Positions 1,283 through 10,729 of a stretch of 54,961 nucleotides of DNA are shown one piece after another; the first letter of the stretch is position 1, and each line of letters starts with the position of its first letter. Location of the stretch: NCBI RefSeq assembly GCF_902788255.1, contig NZ_CADAJR010000002.1, forward strand, positions 1 to 54,961. The letters run 5' to 3'. The DNA is from an uncultured Methanobrevibacter sp. (GTDB taxonomy: Archaea; Methanobacteriota; Methanobacteria; Methanobacteriales; Methanobacteriaceae). The notes beneath the pieces were generated by a model. The model was not told the DNA's origin. It was given only the letters and a program-made list of their open reading frames with translations, and searched no databases. The translations under genes were made by a program, and so were the position numbers.

Positions 1283-1305
1283 GAATATGCCGGAAATGTC
1301 GGATA

Positions 1306-2199
1306 AATAATGATTTATTATCCAGCCAATCTGATTCTGAAAGTTTAAATGTGCCGGAATCAGGGTATCCGAAATTATCAGAGCCTTGTCAGCCTCCTCC
1401 AATGGTTGTTGAAGGTAATAATTTTGTAGTAGTGAATAAATACTGGGAAGGTAATTATTCAGGAAATATTGAAGAAATTGAAATCCAATTATTAAAAAAA
1501 TTAAATCCAACATATGACCCAGTTCCACCTGTACCGTCTCCATGTCCTCCAAAATGGAAAGCTTCTCCTGATGATTTGGAACCTGATAGTAACGGAGAAA
1601 GTTACGATTCAAATTTATTGTCAGGTTCTATTGGAGATATAGTTATTTTGCCTGATGAAAATGGTGTTTTAACTGCTTATACCATTGTTCAAACTGTTAA
1701 AATTACTAAAGTAAATGGTTGGAAATATATTTTCAGAAACTTAACATTTGATTCCGCTTCATTAATTTCTGATAAGTGGAATTTAGGGGATACTGGTGAG
1801 TACGTTATTCGTGAAATTAATATTCCTGTAAATGTGGGAGTTGTTTCTTCAACATTTGTTAAGTACTTTACCTGTCCTGTTGATGGTGGGTTGAAGGTAT
1901 TCTGGAATTTAACAAACAGAATCATTGAAAACAAAACTAATGAAACAACAAACAACACAAATGAAACCAATGAAGTAAAAAATGAAACAAATAAAACCGA
2001 AACATTTGAAGATGTACCGGTTTATTCCAATCGTTCAAGAGGACCTGAACCTTCTGAAACTCCTGAAAAATCACAAAAAGAAAGTACAGAAAAGAATGTT
2101 AATAAAAATGTGGACGTAAGTAACGCTACTGGAAATCCATTATTCATATTATTAATTGTTTTAGCACTTTTAATAGCTCCAGTATTGCGTAAAAAATAA
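1306..2199 (+). pseudogene. A1: Cna_B-type surface protein, 5'-truncated (signal peptide missing)
   Basis: This is the first of three paralogous A genes. It shares with A2 and A3 the strand NKYWEGNYSGNIEEIEIQLL, a short Pro-rich linker, GDIVILPDENG, the WNLTNR strand, a stalk of N-x-T sequons and the C-terminal anchor ATGNPLFILL...RKK. Similarity to A3 begins abruptly near 1306 (NNDLLSSQSDSES). The signal peptide and promoter seen in A2 and A3 are absent. The longest ORF would begin at GTG 1351, which has no ribosome binding site. The Cna_B triad Lys, Glu and Asn is still present, so the damage is limited to the 5' end. It is followed 25 bp later by B1. It is most likely a deletion remnant joined to the damaged HAD gene. 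Confidence 0.7.
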
Positions 2200-2224
2200 T
2201 TAAATAGTAAATATGGTGATTTAA

Positions 2225-3877
2225 ATGATTAAAAGATTAATGATTGTCAGTATGATACTACTGACTATTTTATCCATTACCGCTGTAAGTGCAGCGGAAA
2301 ACATGACAGACACGAGTCTTGAAATTAATGAAGTAGATGAAGAAATCAATGTTGAAAATGAAATTAGTGAAATGGACGAATCAGTTGATGGGAATAATGT
2401 TTTGAGTAGTGAAAATTCAGAAAGTGAAGTAAAAGAGTCAATAGAAGACAAAGTTGTTTTTTACCAATTCTCCGATTTAGACTATTATTATGATGAGATT
2501 ATATCTATTGATGATCTTTATGTTGAAGAGGGTAATGTTAGCATTGTCATTGAAGATGAAGAAGTGTACAATAAGCCGATTTCAAAATATACTTCTATTT
2601 ATCCAAGAGATTTTTCAAAATTATTCATTGGCATTCATAATGTAACATTTTCATATACTGGTGGTAATTATTATGCCCCATTTACTAATACATTTACTGC
2701 AGAGTTCACTCATGGTTTTGGTGTAAATAGTGGATTTAACTATGATATTAATGAGTATGTAATTGAATTATTATTACCTGATTTTGCAACAGGTGTGGTT
2801 AAGATTGATATTAACGATAAATTCTATGCAAATGTGGATTATAATAGCAAAAAATTCTATATACCAATGGATTACTTTAGATTAGGCAGTAATAATATTG
2901 TTTTTACGTATCAGCCAAACCCAAATTATTCAAAATCTATTACTCGATCTTTTTACCTTAATCCGGTCTTTAAAACTCCTGATTATTTCATAATTGGGGA
3001 TGAAGAGGCATATGTTTCAGTACTTGTTCCAAAAAATGAATCCGGTCTATTTGTTGTATATTGGACGTATGGGGAGTCCTCTTATGAATTAGACCCTCAG
3101 CATGAATTCCAACAGATAATTCCTGTTGAAAACGGTATTGCTAAAGTTAAGCTTCCTAAATTGTGTGATATTTCCGATGAGTTCAGTATTGAGTTTATCG
3201 GTAATGCCAGTGATTATACATACTTTACTGTTGAGTATGTTGAACATAATAATGCATTCCAGGCTTTTATAAATAAAGAAACTATTAAAAAAGGTGATGA
3301 GGCTATAATTCAAGTATTTACTAATTACACTGAATCCGACTCTTATTTCAATCTTTTCATTGATGGCAAACAGATTTTAGATACTCATAAACTAACTAAT
3401 GGGTTAAATTTTATAATGCCTAAATTAGAGGTTGGAACACACCAGGTCGTAATTAAATCAGTTCGTAAATCATGGTATGAGCCATCCCCTATTCATTTCT
3501 ATAAAATGTTTAATATTACTGTTGAAGATAAAGTAATTGATAATAGTTCTGTTAAGGAGGATAAATCTCCAGGTAAGATTCCTAATAAAGTACAGAATAA
3601 AGTATCTTTAAAACTTAAGTCCGTTAAAGTTAAAAAATCAGCTAAAAAACTTGTGATTACTGCAACTTTAAAAATCAACGGTAAATTGGCTAAATCAAAG
3701 AAAGTTATTTTCAAATTCAATGGAAAAACTTATAAGATTAAAACCAATTCTAAAGGTATTGCCAAATTAAAAATCAAAAAATCCATTCTTAAAAAGCTTA
3801 AGGCTGGAAAGAAAGTAAAATACCAAGTTTCTTATGGAAAAAATACTGTTAAAAAAACTGCAACTATTAAAAAATAG
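2225..3877 (+). CDS. B1: secreted adhesin-like protein with Lys-rich Ig-like C-terminal domain
   Basis: 550 residues. A Sec signal peptide (residues 1-23, ending VSAAE) is followed by an acidic low-complexity segment (about 24-75). Then come several beta-rich repeats of roughly 100 residues with GIHNVTFSY and GSNNIVFTY type motifs. The last about 90 residues form a strongly basic Ig-like domain (KKSAKKLVITATLKING, then KVKYQVSYGK). There is no C-terminal membrane helix, so it is either released or held by the basic domain on the cell wall. It pairs with A1 (25 bp gap) exactly as B3 pairs with A3. The SD GGTGAT lies 4 bp before the ATG. Ligand unknown. Confidence 0.85.
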   Translation: MIKRLMIVSMILLTILSITAVSAAENMTDTSLEINEVDEEINVENEISEMDESVDGNNVLSSENSESEVKESIEDKVVFYQFSDLDYYYDEIISIDDLYVEEGNVSIVIEDEEVYNKPISKYTSIYPRDFSKLFIGIHNVTFSYTGGNYYAPFTNTFTAEFTHGFGVNSGFNYDINEYVIELLLPDFATGVVKIDINDKFYANVDYNSKKFYIPMDYFRLGSNNIVFTYQPNPNYSKSITRSFYLNPVFKTPDYFIIGDEEAYVSVLVPKNESGLFVVYWTYGESSYELDPQHEFQQIIPVENGIAKVKLPKLCDISDEFSIEFIGNASDYTYFTVEYVEHNNAFQAFINKETIKKGDEAIIQVFTNYTESDSYFNLFIDGKQILDTHKLTNGLNFIMPKLEVGTHQVVIKSVRKSWYEPSPIHFYKMFNITVEDKVIDNSSVKEDKSPGKIPNKVQNKVSLKLKSVKVKKSAKKLVITATLKINGKLAKSKKVIFKFNGKTYKIKTNSKGIAKLKIKKSILKKLKAGKKVKYQVSYGKNTVKKTATIKK

Positions 3878-3895
3878 ATGTTAAACTCATCTATT
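3873..3895 (+). terminator. hairpin terminator after B1
   Basis: AATAGATG pairs with CATCTATT (8-bp stem, 7-nt loop), overlaps the B1 stop codon and is followed by a T-rich run. Confidence 0.65.
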
Positions 3896-4383
3896 TACTT
3901 TTCTTTTTTTTGTTCATCATAATCTATTATGCATTGTTTAATATATAATTAGTTAAGAATCATGTTTTTTTAGTGTTAATATAAATTTGCTGATGAAGAA
4001 TTTGTTTAGTGAAAAATATTTTTTTTAATTTGTTGGATATTTTTCATTTTTTTTATTATAACTTTTCTTATTTGTGAACTCTTTCCACTTAACTTTGTTA
4101 TATTTGAATTATTTCAAATATACAATTCGATAATTTTTTTTAAAATTAATTTTCAGTTTAATTAAAAATATAAATTTTTTATTAATTTGTATAATATTTT
4201 AATAATCTTTATATACTATTAAACTAATACTATTATTACTGATATAAGATGATTAAATAAATTATAAAAATCTTTTTTTGCTCTGTAGTAAGGGGATATA
4301 ATCAACGATTAGTGATTTTTATAAACATTGCTCAATTCTATTTTTATATTTACTTCGAATCATCAAATTAGTATAATTAAATA
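3896..4383. other. AT-rich intergenic region upstream of A2
   Basis: There is no ORF or RNA gene that I can support in this gap. It holds the B1 terminator tail, a 120-bp block shared with the region upstream of A3 (see repeat entries) and a TATA-like CTTTATATA near 4207-4215. If that is the promoter, the A2 mRNA would have a long leader of about 150 nt. Confidence 0.6.
4091..4215 (+). repeat. duplicated upstream block, copy 1 (before A2)
   Basis: It starts with AACTTTGTTATATTTGAAT, continues through a poly-T/A stretch to TTTTTTATTAATTTGTATA and ends at a TATA-like element. The same order of elements recurs at 7504-7630 before A3, showing that the promoter region was duplicated together with the cassette. 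Confidence 0.65.
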
Positions 4384-4395
4384 ATGGTGATTAAA

Positions 4396-5553
4396 TTGAA
4401 AAAAATAATTCTTACGGCATTATTTGTTGTATTATTCATTTTTTCCATTTCTTCAGTTTCATCCGTCGATATGGATAATGAAAATATAATTGCTGCTAGG
4501 CATGAATCATTTGATTTATCCGAAGTAAGTGAAGAGACGCATATAGCTTCAAATGAAGCTTTGAGTGATAAAAATTTAGCAAGTGATGATGATTTATTTT
4601 CCGACCAGGATGAATCATCGATTTTAACTGGACCTAAAGTTAAAGGAGATGTTGATGTAAGTCTTCCTAAAGGGGACGATGATATTGGAGGACTTGATGT
4701 AGATATTAAAGGACCTAAAGTAGATATTGATGTTCCTGATGTGGATGTTGAAGGGCCTGATTGGAATTCATCAAGTGACCAACTTATTGTGAAAAAAATA
4801 TGGGAAGGTAATTATTCAGGAGATATTGAAGAAATTGAAATACAATTGTTAGTGATTTTAGGTTTTGGGCCAAAAATTTATGGGGATGTTGATGTTAGTC
4901 TTCCTAAAGGTGATTTCCAATTTCAACAACAGGCAACTTTTAATGATTATACAAATCAGGGTCTTTCATCTGATAAAAGCAGTGAAGTTGTTATTTTAAG
5001 CAATGGTGAAGGTGTTTTAACTTCGTATAGTGTTGTTGAAACAGTTAAACTCACAAAAAATAATAACTGGACACATGTTTTTAATGTAAGTTATTCAGCG
5101 TATAAAGACAGTAGTGGAGAGTGGGTTTTGTCTAATTCTAATATGTATATGATCAATGAAATCACTCCTAACAATACAATATTGGTTTCATCAAAACTTG
5201 TTAAATACATTGTTTCTCCTGATGAGAAAATTACGGCTTTTTGGAATTTAACAAATAGGGTTATCCCAAATGAAACTAATAACGAAACAACAAATAAGAC
5301 CCCAGAAACCAATCAAACAGTCAATGAAACAGAATCATTTAATGAAACAGAAGAAGATGAATTTGAATTTGTAGAACCTGGATTTGGAAAAGGACCTGGA
5401 TCTTCTAATGAGACTCCTTCTGGATCAACTGAAGATTCATCAAGTACTGTAAGTAAAGAAAATGTTGGCAAAACTGCGACAGGAAATCCAATATTTGTAC
5501 TATTAATCGTTCTTTTTTCAATGATTCTTGTTCCAACATTGCGCAAAAAATAA
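4396..5553 (+). CDS. A2: Cna_B-type surface protein carrying an AHNAK-like segment
   Basis: I place the start at TTG 4396: a GGTGAT ribosome binding site lies 3 bp upstream and the protein then begins like A3 (MKKIIL). An in-frame ATG at 4384 has no such site. This gives 385 residues: signal peptide 1-24; acidic segment 25-75; AHNAK-like segment 79-123; Cna_B first strand (VKKIWEGNYSGDIEEIEI); a second AHNAK-like block 158-173 inserted inside the Cna_B domain; then the NNWTHVFNVS, YMINEITPN and WNLTNR strands; a stalk rich in N-x-T sequons; and the anchor TGNPIFVLLIVLF...RKK. Lys, Glu and Asn of a Cna_B isopeptide bond are present. It is predicted to be exported, glycosylated and membrane-anchored. 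Partner or ligand unknown. Confidence 0.85.
   Translation: MKKIILTALFVVLFIFSISSVSSVDMDNENIIAARHESFDLSEVSEETHIASNEALSDKNLASDDDLFSDQDESSILTGPKVKGDVDVSLPKGDDDIGGLDVDIKGPKVDIDVPDVDVEGPDWNSSSDQLIVKKIWEGNYSGDIEEIEIQLLVILGFGPKIYGDVDVSLPKGDFQFQQQATFNDYTNQGLSSDKSSEVVILSNGEGVLTSYSVVETVKLTKNNNWTHVFNVSYSAYKDSSGEWVLSNSNMYMINEITPNNTILVSSKLVKYIVSPDEKITAFWNLTNRVIPNETNNETTNKTPETNQTVNETESFNETEEDEFEFVEPGFGKGPGSSNETPSGSTEDSSSTVSKENVGKTATGNPIFVLLIVLFSMILVPTLRKK
4630..4764 (+). repeat. AHNAK-like coding segment, copy 1
   Basis: It encodes GPKVKGDVDVSLPK, a short acidic spacer, DIKGPKVDIDVPDVDV and EGPDW. As I recall it, the vertebrate AHNAK/desmoyokin repeat has the same words in the same order. A1 and A3 have nothing comparable here. 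The similarity is read by eye against remembered family sequence. Confidence 0.75.
4867..4914 (+). repeat. AHNAK-like coding segment, copy 2
   Basis: It encodes GPKIYGDVDVSLPKGD, a near copy of the start of the first segment. It replaces the Pro-rich linker found at this place in A1 and A3. It falls between two strands of the Cna_B domain. Confidence 0.7.
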
Positions 5554-5570
5554 TTAGATAATTAAATATG

Positions 5571-5598
5571 AAATAGTGAGATACCTTTCTTACTATTT
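5571..5598 (+). terminator. hairpin terminator between A2 and B2
   Basis: AAATAGTGAG pairs with CTTACTATTT (one G-U) around an 8-nt loop and is followed by TTTTTT. The other two A-B pairs have only 23-25 bp between the genes and no hairpin, so B2 probably has its own promoter or is attenuated. Confidence 0.6.
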
Positions 5599-5650
5599 TT
5601 TATAATATTATTTAACAAATATATTATCATATACTCGAGTTGGGATATTC

Positions 5651-7402
5651 ATGTTAAAAAAATTAATCATTGTCATTATTGTTTTTATAGGCATTTTTTC
5701 TATAGCTACCATAAGTGCATCTGATAATATCACCTATTCAGATTTGGAAGTTTCAGATGTTAAAGAAGAGTTTTCTATTGAAAAAGTGGATGATTTTTCT
5801 TCATTGGATTCAAATGAAGAATCAGAATCAATAGACCCATATGTTGAGATATCTGATGAAGTTCTTATTGATGATTATGGTGGGTCTAAAATTGTTTATT
5901 TTTCTGATGTGTCACCTGAGGCCAGTGAAAATATTACGATGCTACTTGATGGAGAAAAAGTTTATTGCAATAAACTTGAGAGTTATCAATCTATTCTTCT
6001 TTTAGATTTGTCAAATCAGCCAAGTTATGGAATTCATAATATTACAATCTCTTCGCCAGGGGGTTTTTATCAGCCATTCAATAAAACATTCATGGTAAAC
6101 TTCACTTATCCTTTTGAAGTTTATAGATTATATGGTGAAGATATAGATAAATTTAACTTTGAAGTATACATGCCGTCAGACAATACAAAAATGATTAATT
6201 TAACATTGAACAATAAATTTTATGGCATCGTTAATTTGGATGAGAATTCTTGCTTTAAAATAGATATCAATGATTTGAAATTAGGGGATAATATTCTTGT
6301 TGCCACTTATTCTGATTTGAATCGACCTAAAAAATCTGTTTCATGTATTTTTCAGGTATATCCTTTGTTTAACTTACCTGATGAATTAATATTTGATGAT
6401 TCACAAGCCAATGTGTCCGTTCGAGTACCGGTTAATGAATCAGGTATTTTTGAATTGTACAGTGTTGATGAAAATAATGAATTGGTGCTTATAAACTCCA
6501 CTAGCGCAGTAAATGGTTTCGCTTCTTTTAATTTGTCTAAAAGCTTCAATAAAACTAATTATTGTGTTAAACTCATTGCAAATGAAACTGATGAGATGTA
6601 CTTTTCACTTTATTTTGTCGAAAGCTCTGAGCTATTTGATGCAATTGTCCCGACTGAAGCCAATAATACTGCCGGTTTAACCATTCAACTGTTCAATTTA
6701 AACGATGATTATCTATGTTATTTTGATGTTCTTGTAGACAATCAGACTAAAATAAACTACAGATTTTTAAGCGGTGAATTGAATGTGACTGTTCCTGTTG
6801 AACCTGGGCTGCATGAAGTCATTATTCGTCCTTCATATTCCCTGGATATTTTTGCTCCTAGTTCATCTTTTGTCAGGGTATTCCAAGTCAATGTTGAGAA
6901 CACAACTGATGAAAGTTCCTCCGGTGGCAGTATTTGGGATGAAATTGAAAATGGACTTATAGATTTAAATGACTTGGGGGATGATGACAATCCGAATGGT
7001 AATGTGAATTCATCAACAAACGTAACCAATTCCACTTCTGAAACTGAAAATCATTCAAATTCAGATCCTCCTGCACAGGATATCAAAACCACTCCTGTAA
7101 AACCAACAGTTAAAACTGTTAAAAAAATATCTTTGAGCCTTAAATCTGTAAAAATTAGAAAATCTGCAAAAAAACTAATTTTAACAGCTACTTTGAAGAT
7201 AAATAATAAAAAAGCTAAAAATAAATTAGTTATTTTTAAATTCAAGGGTAAAACCTATAAGAAACGGACAAATAAATACGGAATAGCAAAATTAACAATA
7301 AAAAAGTCTGTTCTGAAAAGGCTTAAGGTGAAAAAGAAAGTTACCTATCAAGTGTCTTATGGTAAAAAAACTATAAAAAAGAGGGCTGTTGTCAAAAAAT
7401 AG
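5651..7402 (+). CDS. B2: secreted adhesin-like protein with Lys-rich Ig-like C-terminal domain
   Basis: 583 residues, paralogous to B1 and B3. Signal peptide 1-23 (ending TISAS), acidic segment, then beta-rich repeats with the shared motifs YGIHNITISSPGG and LGDNILVATYSD. Next is a Ser/Asn/Thr-rich linker with N-x-T/S sequons (about 430-480), then the basic C-terminal domain (KKSAKK, then KKKVTYQVSYGKK). There is no membrane anchor. It is separated from A2 by a terminator and a 97-bp gap, unlike the other pairs. It lacks the PEV repeat insertion seen in B3. Role inferred as a cell-surface adhesin partner of A2. Confidence 0.85.
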   Translation: MLKKLIIVIIVFIGIFSIATISASDNITYSDLEVSDVKEEFSIEKVDDFSSLDSNEESESIDPYVEISDEVLIDDYGGSKIVYFSDVSPEASENITMLLDGEKVYCNKLESYQSILLLDLSNQPSYGIHNITISSPGGFYQPFNKTFMVNFTYPFEVYRLYGEDIDKFNFEVYMPSDNTKMINLTLNNKFYGIVNLDENSCFKIDINDLKLGDNILVATYSDLNRPKKSVSCIFQVYPLFNLPDELIFDDSQANVSVRVPVNESGIFELYSVDENNELVLINSTSAVNGFASFNLSKSFNKTNYCVKLIANETDEMYFSLYFVESSELFDAIVPTEANNTAGLTIQLFNLNDDYLCYFDVLVDNQTKINYRFLSGELNVTVPVEPGLHEVIIRPSYSLDIFAPSSSFVRVFQVNVENTTDESSSGGSIWDEIENGLIDLNDLGDDDNPNGNVNSSTNVTNSTSETENHSNSDPPAQDIKTTPVKPTVKTVKKISLSLKSVKIRKSAKKLILTATLKINNKKAKNKLVIFKFKGKTYKKRTNKYGIAKLTIKKSVLKRLKVKKKVTYQVSYGKKTIKKRAVVKK

Positions 7403-7763
7403 CTTATTTTTTTTAATTCTCATAATTTTTTTCATAACTTCCATTTTATGAATATTATCTAAAATTTTAATTATAACATCGTTAATTCTGAATGATATCT
7501 ACATAACTTTGTTATATTTGAATATTGTCTATTATACAATATGATATATTTTTTTAAAATATATTTCCAATTTGTTTAAAAATTTTAAATTTTTATTAAT
7601 TTGTATACTTTTTCCCATACATTTATATATGAATAAAATAAAACTATATGTAATTATGTTATTGTAAAACATATACATAATTTTTAAAAAAATATTTATC
7701 AAAAATTTTTTTACAATATTTAATTGTTCAAATTTTTTTTTAAATAATGTAGGGGGATTTTTT
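7403..7763. other. AT-rich intergenic region upstream of A3
   Basis: No ORF or structured RNA is evident. It contains the second copy of the duplicated upstream block and a TATA-like ATTTATATAT at 7621-7630, followed by a long leader and a strong AGGGGGATT ribosome binding site before A3. Confidence 0.6.
7504..7630 (+). repeat. duplicated upstream block, copy 2 (before A3)
   Basis: AACTTTGTTATATTTGAAT, then a poly-T/A stretch, then TTTTTATTAATTTGTATA and a TATA-like element, matching 4091-4215 in order and spacing with many point differences. Confidence 0.65.
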
Positions 7764-8870
7764 ATGAAAAAAATTATATTTTCAATAATTTTAATATTAT
7801 TCTTGATCGGTTCAATAAGTGCTGTTAGCTCAGCCGAAAGTACTGATGCAATGGAAAGTGATATCGATGAGACGATAGACTTATCGAATGTAAACGATGA
7901 AACGCAGTCTATTGAAAATGCAAATGTAAATAATAATGAGAATCTGTTGGGTTCCAGTTCCGATGATGGTTCTTTAGGTCAGCCAGATGGAGCACAACAG
8001 CAACATGATGATTCTCAAGATTCTGGTAATGAAAAGAATTTTGTAGTGGTAACTAAAAATTGGGAAGGAAACTATTCCGGAGATATAGAGGAAATCGAAA
8101 TTGAATTATTAAAAAAATTAAATCCTAATATTGATAATCCAAAGGTACCAGAACCTTGCCATCCTAAGGTTCCGGAACCTTGCCATCCTAAAGTGCCAGA
8201 ACCATGTCCTTCCCCAGTAGTCCCAGGACCGGCACAACAACAAACTAAACAAAAAGCCAGTCTTGATGATTCAAATATTAATCAAAACATTTTAGCAAGT
8301 GCAATTGGAGACATTGTAATCTTGCCTGATGAAAACGGTAACTTAACTTCTTATGTAGTAGTTCAAAAAGCCAAACTAACCAAAGCAAACAATTGGAAAC
8401 ATGCCTTCAAGAATCTAACCTTTGCATCAGCATATAGGGATAATGAAGGTCAATGGGTTTTATATGATGCCGGCGAATATATGGTGCGTGAATTCACTCC
8501 TGATAATACTGAGTTAATTTCATCACATTTCGTAAAATACTTTACATGTCCGGCTGACAACGGTTTAAAAGTATTTTGGAATTTGACCAATAGGGTTGTC
8601 CCGAATGAAACTACTAACGAAACCACCAATAAGACCCCGGAAACCAATCAAACAGTCAATGAAACAGATGAAGACGAATTCGAATTTGTAGAGCCTGGAT
8701 ATGGAAAAGGGCCGGGATCTCCTAAAAATGAGACTCCTTCTGAATCTAGTGAAGATTCACCAGCTCCAAGTAAAGTGAACGTAAGCAAAACCGCAACAGG
8801 AAATCCAATATTCCTAATATTGATTGCATTATTTGCTATGATTATACCAACATTACGTAAAAGGGAATAA
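7764..8870 (+). CDS. A3: Cna_B-type surface protein with Pro/Cys repeat insert
   Basis: 368 residues. Signal peptide 1-24; acidic Asn/Asp/Ser/Gln-rich segment 25-90; Cna_B-like domain about 93-280. In it, K98 lies in VTKNW, E243 in YMVREF and N276 in WNLTNR, positions expected for a Lys-Asn isopeptide bond helped by Glu. Between the first and later strands sits an insert with three PKVPEPC(H) units (126-148). A stalk of N-x-T sequons (281-300) and an acidic/Gly-Pro segment lead to the anchor TGNPIFLILIALF and a basic tail. The SD is AGGGGGATT. It is co-transcribed with B3, 23 bp downstream. The stalk DNA is very close to that of A2, suggesting recent duplication or conversion. Confidence 0.87.
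   Translation: MKKIIFSIILILFLIGSISAVSSAESTDAMESDIDETIDLSNVNDETQSIENANVNNNENLLGSSSDDGSLGQPDGAQQQHDDSQDSGNEKNFVVVTKNWEGNYSGDIEEIEIELLKKLNPNIDNPKVPEPCHPKVPEPCHPKVPEPCPSPVVPGPAQQQTKQKASLDDSNINQNILASAIGDIVILPDENGNLTSYVVVQKAKLTKANNWKHAFKNLTFASAYRDNEGQWVLYDAGEYMVREFTPDNTELISSHFVKYFTCPADNGLKVFWNLTNRVVPNETTNETTNKTPETNQTVNETDEDEFEFVEPGYGKGPGSPKNETPSESSEDSPAPSKVNVSKTATGNPIFLILIALFAMIIPTLRKRE
8139..8207 (+). repeat. three 24-bp coding repeats in A3 (PKVPEPCH)
   Basis: Units at 8139-8162, 8163-8186 and 8187-8207 (last one partial) encode PKVPEPCH, PKVPEPCH and PKVPEPC. Third-position differences show they are not a fresh slippage product. Each unit carries one Cys. Confidence 0.85.
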
Positions 8871-8893
8871 GTGCAGTTGGCAGGTGGTTAATA

Positions 8894-10729
8894 ATGTTTA
8901 AAAAAATTATTATAGTGAGTTTACTTTTACTTGCTATTTTTTCAATTAGTGCTGTTAGTGCAGCGGAAAACATATCTGACACTACCATAGAGAATCCGGA
9001 AATTAATGAAGTATTAAGTGTTGAAAATAAAATAGAAGATAATGATGTTGAAGATGAAGATTTGTCTTCTGATAATGTAGATGATGATCTTTTGTCTGAT
9101 GAGTCTAGTGAGGATAAATTAGGGGCTCATGAAGAATCTGTTCTTAAAGGTCCTTCCATTGAAAGTTATATAAGAGTTAGTGATACAGTTCATGTTGATG
9201 AATATGGTTATTCAGATACAGTACTATACATTAGTAATATATATTATTATGCGGAGGGCACTATTTCAATTGATATAGATGGTGAAAAGGTTTACTCTTC
9301 ATCAGTTTCTAGATATAAATATATTTATTCTGAACACCTTTCCAAAACACCTGGTTATGGAATGCATAATCTAACAGTTTCCTACAAGGGTTCATATTAT
9401 GACTCTTTTACAAAAACATATCAAGTTTACTTTACATACCCATTCAATGCGTATGCAGATTATTGGGATTTCTCCTACTTTCATGTAGAATTGCCAAATG
9501 CAGCTCTTAATAATACAGTCAATGTTCAAGTAAACGGAAAAAATTTGGGAAATAGGCCTTTAGATAATTATAGACGTTTTTATTTAGATTATGAGAATTA
9601 TAATTTAGGATACAACTTAATTACTGTAAGTTATGAAGATTCAATACATCCTAAAAGCTCTGTTGATATAAATTATCATGTTAATCCAATATTTGATGTT
9701 CCTTCAGGATATATTATCGATGATGAGGAAGCTGCTGTTACTGTGACCGTTCCTCGTCATGAAAATGGAATATTGGTTCTTTATAAAGTATTAAGGGAAG
9801 CTCAAGTGCCAGAAGTGCATGTAGAATCTGTAGTACCTGAAGTGCAAGTTGAATCTGAAGTGCCAGAAGTGCATATAGAACCTGATAATGTGTTAAGTTC
9901 ATATCGTGAATTCTTAACTTCAGTTCCTGTAGTAAATGGTACTGCATCCATAAAAATTCCAAAATCAGATCAATTACAATATTATGCGGCAGAATTCATT
10001 GGAAATGAGAGATTTGATGTGAATTTTAATGTTGAATTTATCTCAAATAATCCTTCAATAATTATTGATTATCCTAGTGAAGTAACTGAAGGACACAACT
10101 TTAAAATTCAAATAGAGAATATTGCTGATGAAATGTTAAACTTTAATGTTTATATTGATGGTCAAATTGCTCTTCATAGTCACTATCTTTTAGATAATAT
10201 ATCAATTTCAATTCCAAAATTAAGTGTTGGAACCCATGAAATACTAATCAGGTCAATTGATCCTTATTATGAAAATGAAAATCATGTACATTTCTATAAA
10301 AAATTCAACATTACTGTAAATGAAAAAGAAGTTGTAGATGATGTTAACTCTACTGTTGGTTCACAGGAGGATATTATAAAAAATAATGATCCTAACAAGG
10401 ATAATAATGTAGAAAAATCTAAAAAAGATAATAAACCTGTTAAAAGTAATAAAATTGTAGTGTCTCTTAAAAAAGTTAAAATTAAAAAATCAGCTAAAAA
10501 GCTTGTTATTACTGCGACTTTGAAAGTGAATGGTAAATTAGTAAAATCCAAAATTTTAACCTTTAAGTTCAACGGAAAATCCTACAAGGTTAAACTGAAT
10601 TCAAAGGGTTTGGCCAAGCTTACCATTAAAAAATCTGTTCTTAAAAAACTTAAGGTCGGTAAAAAAGTCAAGTATCAAGTTTCTTATGGTAAATATGTGG
10701 TTAAAAAAACTGCAACTGTTAGGAAATAA
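8894..10729 (+). CDS. B3: secreted adhesin-like protein with PEV repeat insert and Lys-rich C-terminus
   Basis: 611 residues, the longest B protein. Signal peptide 1-24 (ending VSAAE), acidic segment to about 90, then beta-rich repeats (YGMHNLTVSYKG, LGYNLITVSYED). A 27-residue insert (304-330) of three 9-residue units around VPEVHVES sits in a loop that is short in B1 and B2. After further beta repeats and a basic linker, the C-terminal domain has KKSAKKLVITATLKVNG and KVKYQVSYGK. There is no membrane anchor. The SD GGTGG precedes the ATG. It is translated 23 bp after A3, so the two are very likely co-expressed. Confidence 0.86.
   Translation: MFKKIIIVSLLLLAIFSISAVSAAENISDTTIENPEINEVLSVENKIEDNDVEDEDLSSDNVDDDLLSDESSEDKLGAHEESVLKGPSIESYIRVSDTVHVDEYGYSDTVLYISNIYYYAEGTISIDIDGEKVYSSSVSRYKYIYSEHLSKTPGYGMHNLTVSYKGSYYDSFTKTYQVYFTYPFNAYADYWDFSYFHVELPNAALNNTVNVQVNGKNLGNRPLDNYRRFYLDYENYNLGYNLITVSYEDSIHPKSSVDINYHVNPIFDVPSGYIIDDEEAAVTVTVPRHENGILVLYKVLREAQVPEVHVESVVPEVQVESEVPEVHIEPDNVLSSYREFLTSVPVVNGTASIKIPKSDQLQYYAAEFIGNERFDVNFNVEFISNNPSIIIDYPSEVTEGHNFKIQIENIADEMLNFNVYIDGQIALHSHYLLDNISISIPKLSVGTHEILIRSIDPYYENENHVHFYKKFNITVNEKEVVDDVNSTVGSQEDIIKNNDPNKDNNVEKSKKDNKPVKSNKIVVSLKKVKIKKSAKKLVITATLKVNGKLVKSKILTFKFNGKSYKVKLNSKGLAKLTIKKSVLKKLKVGKKVKYQVSYGKYVVKKTATVRK
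9803..9883 (+). repeat. three 27-bp coding repeats in B3 (xVPEVxVES)
   Basis: The units QVPEVHVES, VVPEVQVES and EVPEVHIEP are contiguous at 9803-9829, 9830-9856 and 9857-9883. They occupy a loop between two beta strands that are adjacent in B1 and B2. Confidence 0.85.

Follow-up and report, generated by a model that had tools for sequence, protein, structure and literature searches.

Does the resemblance between surface proteins of a methanogen and the repeat proteins of animal stratified epithelium reflect chance, inheritance from a host or a function directed at a host? The question is raised by three surface-protein gene pairs (A1-B1, A2-B2 and A3-B3) that extend from about position 1300 to 10729 of the window, by which we mean the whole stretch of 54,961 nt analysed here, with ilvD downstream. 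The contig, C2, is 108 kb long and begins with the window; it belongs to a methanogen genome of 2.2 Mb that is 99.9% complete. A single A-B pair is found at the equivalent locus of the closest relative with the A gene family, the uncultured Methanobrevibacter RUG13115, which belongs to the same genus. RUG denotes the Rumen Uncultured Genome series, and it is from this one relative that we infer the host and habitat of the source genome. The genes are as follows.

1309..2199, + strand: A1, a sister copy without a start or a signal peptide; its slots are GYPKLSEPCQPPPM and VPPVPSPCPPKWK
2225..3877, + strand: B1, a paired secreted adhesin-like protein with a Big_3_5-like domain
4384..5553, + strand: A2, an exported, C-terminally anchored Cna_B-like surface protein of 389 amino acids
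5651..7402, + strand: B2, a paired adhesin-like protein
7764..8870, + strand: A3, a sister surface protein of 368 amino acids
8894..10729, + strand: B3, a paired adhesin-like protein that has a 27-bp tandem repeat (9797–9885)

The A proteins share a layout. After a signal peptide, lost in A1, comes slot 1, an arm that is acidic and disordered; a β domain follows, which slot 2 interrupts as a disordered loop, and the chain ends in a stalk rich in Asn, Glu and Thr and a C-terminal membrane helix. In the predicted model, the slots are low-confidence coil beside a confident β domain. Methanobrevibacter adhesin-like proteins form large paralogous families and combine a signal peptide with a β-sandwich domain and a single membrane anchor (PMC2812497, PMC11532034). 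The signal peptide and the anchor are both present in A2, where the model places hydrophobic helices at the N terminus (residues 2–23) and the C terminus (residues 369–387); a search of the source genome with the anchor segment gave 12 matches at E ≤ 10, of which several are weak. The A proteins match the adhesin-like proteins in signal peptide, β domain and anchor, and B1–B3 carry the typical Ig-like domains, but the A family differs by its Cna_B-like domain and its host-like slots; neither ‘Cna’ nor ‘mimic’ is mentioned in PMC11532034.

The β domain resembles the pilin-type domains of Gram-positive bacteria. All six A members match the Cna_B family (PF05738) weakly, with E ≤ 0.1 and a best value of 1.6e-4, and the printed scores of A3 (17.1 bits, E = 0.0077) and RUG13115 (19.1 bits) stay below the cut-off of 22.3 bits. 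The best PDB matches of the domain model are pilins and Cna B domains (PitA, SpaD and Cna B1B2); Foldseek probabilities reach 1.00, but the E values are about 1e-3 to 1e-1. A comparison of profiles between the domain and a Cna_B protein encoded elsewhere in the source genome was set aside, as no more than 19 columns could be aligned. K138, E259 and N291 (A2 numbering) are invariant in the six members and lie on suitable strands of the model, a pattern that would fit the Lys/Glu/Asn isopeptide triad of Cna_B-type domains. Five members carry a slot-2 cysteine together with the cysteine of an FTCP motif, and A2 carries neither, as expected for a putative disulfide pair. Unlike Gram-positive pilins, the A proteins have an archaeal membrane anchor, and no sortase signal was noted in them. 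The domains, and the slots that concern us in A2, are the following.

4630..4767, + strand: AHNAK-like cassette of 46 residues that fills slot 1 of A2 and is predicted to be disordered
4681..4764, + strand: 21-bp (7-residue) tandem array DIGGLDV/DIKGPKV/DIDVPDV/DVEGPDW within the AHNAK-like cassette (TRF period 21, 3.9 copies, 4681–4761)
4780..5268, + strand: Cna_B-like domain of A2, split by slot 2
4867..4935, + strand: slot 2 of A2, a partial second copy GPKIYGDVDVSLPKGD (4867–4914) followed by FQFQQQA
8037..8603, + strand: Cna_B-like domain of A3, split by the SPRR-like cassette

The original prediction had recognised the words of the vertebrate AHNAK/desmoyokin repeat in A2 and had found A1 and A3 to lack them, and both observations hold. 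Positions 4630–4764 read GPKVKGDVDVSLPK-GDDDIGGLD-VDIKGPKVDIDVPDVDV-E-GPDW, which corresponds to residues 83–127 if numbering begins with the ATG at 4384; the numbers 79–123 given earlier agree with a start at the alternative TTG, at 4396. Aligned without gaps to a working text of an AHNAK repeat, which published peptides support in its C-terminal third, the stretch is identical at 37 of 46 positions and agrees in heptad order, spacing and register. In 5000 shuffles of the stretch, no more than 17 identities were obtained. As the tail of the stretch is a 21-bp tandem array and AHNAK itself is heptad-rich, we also used a stricter null that preserves the heptads: samples that kept the real head and drew the tail from the heptad profile had 30 identities on average, and 1 of 1500 reached 37. 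The heptad order as found is the best of all 24 orders, and altering the spacer by 1–3 residues lowers the match from 38 to 23–27.

The working text was compared with published AHNAK peptides in its C-terminal third only. There, the peptide VDIDVPDVNIEGPDAK, assigned to AHNAK (PMC9110868), shares 12 of 14 positions with VDIDVPDVDVEGPD of A2, and 11–12 positions of the last third of the stretch are common to each of four published peptides, the others being VDINAPDVGVQGPDWHLKMPK (assigned to AHNAK, PMC10469356), MDIDAPDVEVQGPDWHLK (assigned to AHNAK, PMC12680078) and VDINTPDVDVHGPDWHLK, printed in PMC10851225 in a passage that names no protein. A literature search for N-terminal AHNAK words, including GPKVKGDVDVSLPK, and for SPRR words returned none of them, the peptides found all being C-terminal AHNAK ones; a sequence search of the PDB with A2 or the AHNAK repeat gave no match.

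The resemblance does not make A2 a member of the AHNAK family. In place of a long array of units of about 128 residues, A2 has the 46-residue piece and a 16-residue partial copy, which the original prediction missed and which lies 237 bp away with 83% DNA identity to 4629–4676. The pieces are set, in archaeal codons, into a protein with a signal peptide, a Cna_B-like domain and a membrane anchor, and no other AHNAK domain is present.

A second host-like stretch, likewise absent from the original prediction, occupies slot 2 of A3, whereas the AHNAK-like piece and its partial copy occupy slots 1 and 2 of A2.

8139..8255, + strand: slot 2 cassette of A3, cornifin/SPRR1-like PKVPEPCHPKVPEPCHPKVPEPCPSPVVPGPAQQQTKQK, with a 24-bp tandem array (TRF 8137–8203)

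This stretch matches the Pfam family Cornifin (PF02389) with E = 4.2e-11 and 43.6 bits against a curated gathering cut-off of 34.8, a database result that is independent of the working AHNAK text. It shares with cornifin/SPRR an 8-residue repeat, PKVPEPCH, and an end rich in Gln and Lys. When the stretch was shuffled (n = 7) or reversed (n = 1), no PF02389 match was obtained. The match covers profile positions 94–135 only: rather than an SPRR head, repeat and tail spanning a whole small protein, A3 has a headless cassette that forms a loop in the Cna_B-like domain of a 368-residue surface protein of prokaryotic type.

Both stretches are rare. With the working text of the AHNAK repeat as the query against 139 genomes of the family, A2 gave E = 2e-20 and the next best match 0.004; the AHNAK-like stretch was found in no other of these genomes, and relatives of the cassette were absent, at the sensitivity of the scans, from 84,980 GTDB species, IMG/VR, phages and plasmids. 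The cassette is known from a single genome, and equal matches to many unrelated prokaryotic repeat proteins, the outcome that the original prediction had named as speaking against it, were not seen. Of 152 genomes of the phylum, the source genome is the only one with the SPRR-like stretch, and of the 139 family genomes it alone passes the cornifin cut-off. Weak cornifin matches in two other genomes of the family (G105 and G076) were discarded, as they fall under the cut-off and both lie within other long open frames. The host-like stretches are real, they are present in two sister genes, and they are very unusual.

The repeat copies differ mainly at silent sites. The three PKVPEPC units of A3 (7 codons) show 3, 5 and 5 changes per 5 silent sites and zero amino-acid changes, and the two copies in A2 (16 codons) give a dS of 0.95 and a dN of 0.09; the A2 heptads, by comparison with each other, are unlike (dN 0.26–0.49). 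Samples of 7 and 16 codons are tiny, yet the conservation of amino acids between copies that are close to saturation at silent sites speaks for retention of the words.

The explanation that we favour, while rating it somewhat short of probable, is that A2 and A3 show host-epithelium-like cassettes with a host-directed display function and work in a manner analogous to Hwp1 of Candida albicans. Hwp1 carries a Gln-Pro cassette, absent from its paralogs, that serves as a substrate for host transglutaminases and is described as ‘dropped into’ a surface protein (PMC9273023). Each is a lineage-specific disordered surface cassette that paralogs lack, and the cassettes of A2 and A3 resemble what that of Hwp1 serves as, an epithelial cross-linking substrate. 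Hwp1 is, however, a fungal cell-wall protein with Gln-Pro repeats and demonstrated cross-linking, whereas A2 and A3 are known from sequence and the parallel is one of analogy. As to the host side, SPRR proteins and transglutaminase 3 (TGM3) have been found in sheep rumen epithelium (PMC6346531), Sprr genes are highly expressed there (PMC5585965), and rumen epithelium is keratinised (PMC6346531, PMC5585965).

In the proposed mechanism, every step of which from surface display to host contact we infer, A2 and A3 would be exported and membrane-anchored, and each would expose two disordered slots, the N-terminal arm and the intradomain loop, on a single Cna_B-like (pilin-type) domain. The short repeat cassettes in the slots resemble AHNAK/desmoyokin (A2) and cornifin/SPRR1 (A3), which are repeat proteins from the stratified epithelium of animals, and a stiff anchored module may present a flexible peptide akin to host cornified epithelium. 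The cell surface might then look or react like the host cornified surface, as a host transglutaminase substrate or through a docking peptide, and the methanogen cell might thereby be held at the epithelium or tolerated there. Surface exposure, host contact and the transglutaminase or docking chemistry are putative alike.

Support for the display of host-like cassettes comes from (i) the occurrence of different host-epithelial look-alikes in equivalent slots of adjacent paralogs, (ii) the curated Pfam SPRR match, with its clean shuffling and reversal controls and the source genome alone passing among 139, (iii) AHNAK words, order and spacing beyond what heptad-preserving controls give, in an outlier among the same genomes, (iv) the amino-acid constraint in the PKVPEPC units and the A2 copies, (v) the predicted position of the slots as low-confidence coil flanking a confident pilin/Cna B-like β domain, and (vi) the RUG13115 relative, the presence of SPRR and transglutaminase 3 in rumen epithelium and the Hwp1 precedent. 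Against it, short repeats in which G/P/K/V/D or P/C/K predominate need no host in order to arise, the A2 cassette has been seen in one genome, published peptides cover the AHNAK comparison in its C-terminal third, and host and habitat are deduced from one relative. AHNAK is, moreover, mainly intracellular, which makes its mimicry by a surface protein less obvious than that of SPRR.

A somewhat unlikely alternative, and the one that survives best, is chance or physical convergence, in which exposed slots grow by slippage into repeats of favoured composition and the host resemblance is coincidental, with no host-directed function. The gene cluster contains three tandem arrays, of 21, 24 and 27 bp, the last of which has no Pfam host match, and sequence drawn from the heptad profile alone averages 20 identities to AHNAK over 46 positions. 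Simpler Pro/Cys/Lys seeds of the SPRR-like piece stand in slot 2 of relatives (PPVPELCPPKCK in RUG13115, VPPVPSPCPPKWK in A1, and SLCPPKWK and SEPCPPP in two A paralogs on contig C4); the KQKAS end of the A3 piece aligns with KWKAS of A1; and a second A-family gene of RUG13115 (5896–6282, cut by the contig end) has CPSPVVPGP in slot 1, as in the A3 cassette. These three observations indicate, and our favoured explanation likewise holds, that the SPRR-like piece probably grew within the lineage from a Pro/Cys/Lys seed, a 24-bp unit having been duplicated in tandem and altered by substitution. Convergence sits poorly, however, with an AHNAK match that is exact in order, register and spacing, with two independent host-epithelial look-alikes in sister genes, with the constraint on amino acids between repeat copies, and with the finding of nothing comparable in the 139 family genomes or the scan of 84,980 species. 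The A family has no comparable seed for the AHNAK-like piece, whose register-exact match points either to old capture with codon replacement or to strong convergence. The suggestion in the original prediction that a repeat had arisen on its own retains some probability in a changed form, the signs of in-lineage growth being those of the SPRR-like sister piece.

Its other suggestion, capture from a host, divides by age. Codon use in both pieces fits archaeal genes, with a GC3 of 0.11 (11%) in the AHNAK-like piece and 0.23 in the SPRR-like piece, and when the same protein was redrawn with human codon use, the observed archaeal codon score was never reached. The archaeal codons in both pieces exclude recent transfer, and the 108-kb archaeal contig and the diverged copy nearby also speak against it. 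Old capture, in which a host AHNAK fragment, and perhaps an SPRR one, entered in frame, its amino acids being kept by selection while its codons became archaeal, we consider unlikely. The gapless colinearity of 46 residues with the working repeat text, correct in heptad order and spacing, would be explained by such an event, and a prokaryotic intermediate was not found in the genome scans; the fully archaeal codon use counts against it, as do, for capture of a whole SPRR fragment, the in-lineage seeds, the KQKAS/KWKAS alignment and CPSPVVPGP in RUG13115.

Less likely again is a function confined to the archaeal envelope, in which Gln/Lys/Cys-rich slots are cross-linked by transglutaminase-fold enzymes of the archaeon itself or by disulfides, and the resemblance arises from both surfaces being cross-linked layers. 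The co-occurrence of the slot-2 and FTCP cysteines in five members and their joint absence from A2 are consistent with this, and seven Transglut_core (PF01841) matches over the cut-off lie in large open frames on contigs C26, C6, C10, C14 and C24. Transglut_core is, however, widespread (10 of 14 control genomes), and in prokaryotes it is mostly proteolytic; furthermore, the AHNAK-like cassette contains neither Cys nor Gln, and the word match exceeds composition.

The archaeal assembly has an estimated contamination of 2.2% and contains protein words like those of a host, which might suggest assembly error or contamination by host DNA. This explanation is very improbable, and recent contamination is rejected on the archaeal codon use; the stretches are embedded in frame within a paralogous family, a diverged second copy lies 237 bp away, and the 108-kb contig carries methanogen genes.

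To return to the display of host-like cassettes, little is understood of how methanogens hold on to animal hosts or are tolerated by them, and the partners to which adhesin-like proteins have been tied are mostly bacterial. The short stretches of A2 and A3 may be the first case of an archaeon imitating host epithelium. The fuller claim, that a gut archaeon shows imitations, one of them possibly captured, of two host epithelial proteins for attaching to or passing as cornified epithelium, and that this is the first archaeal molecular mimicry of host structural proteins, is a more doubtful one. If true, cassettes copying cornified-envelope and AHNAK repeats would constitute a concrete and testable mechanism of host contact and would give studies of methanogen retention in ruminants a target.

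Several further features of the cluster were observed. The 27-bp repeat of B3 (9797–9885) comprises 3.3 copies that read EAQVPEVHV/ESVVPEVQV/ESEVPEVHI and is absent from B1 and B2; considered as a third host look-alike, it was rejected for want of a Pfam match. A HAD/nucleotidase-like gene (756–1308) has a frameshift near 930–945 and reads on into A1, and this broken gene and the startless A1 are either decayed copies at the contig edge or the product of sequencing error. The regions upstream of A2 and A3 (4068–4233 and 7482–7647) are 76% identical over 166 nt, which suggests shared regulation of the two genes. Finally, at the end of the domain, 5239–5333 of A2 and 8574–8668 of A3 are 92% identical at the DNA level over 95 nt, far exceeding the remainder of the genes, and this suggests gene conversion between them.
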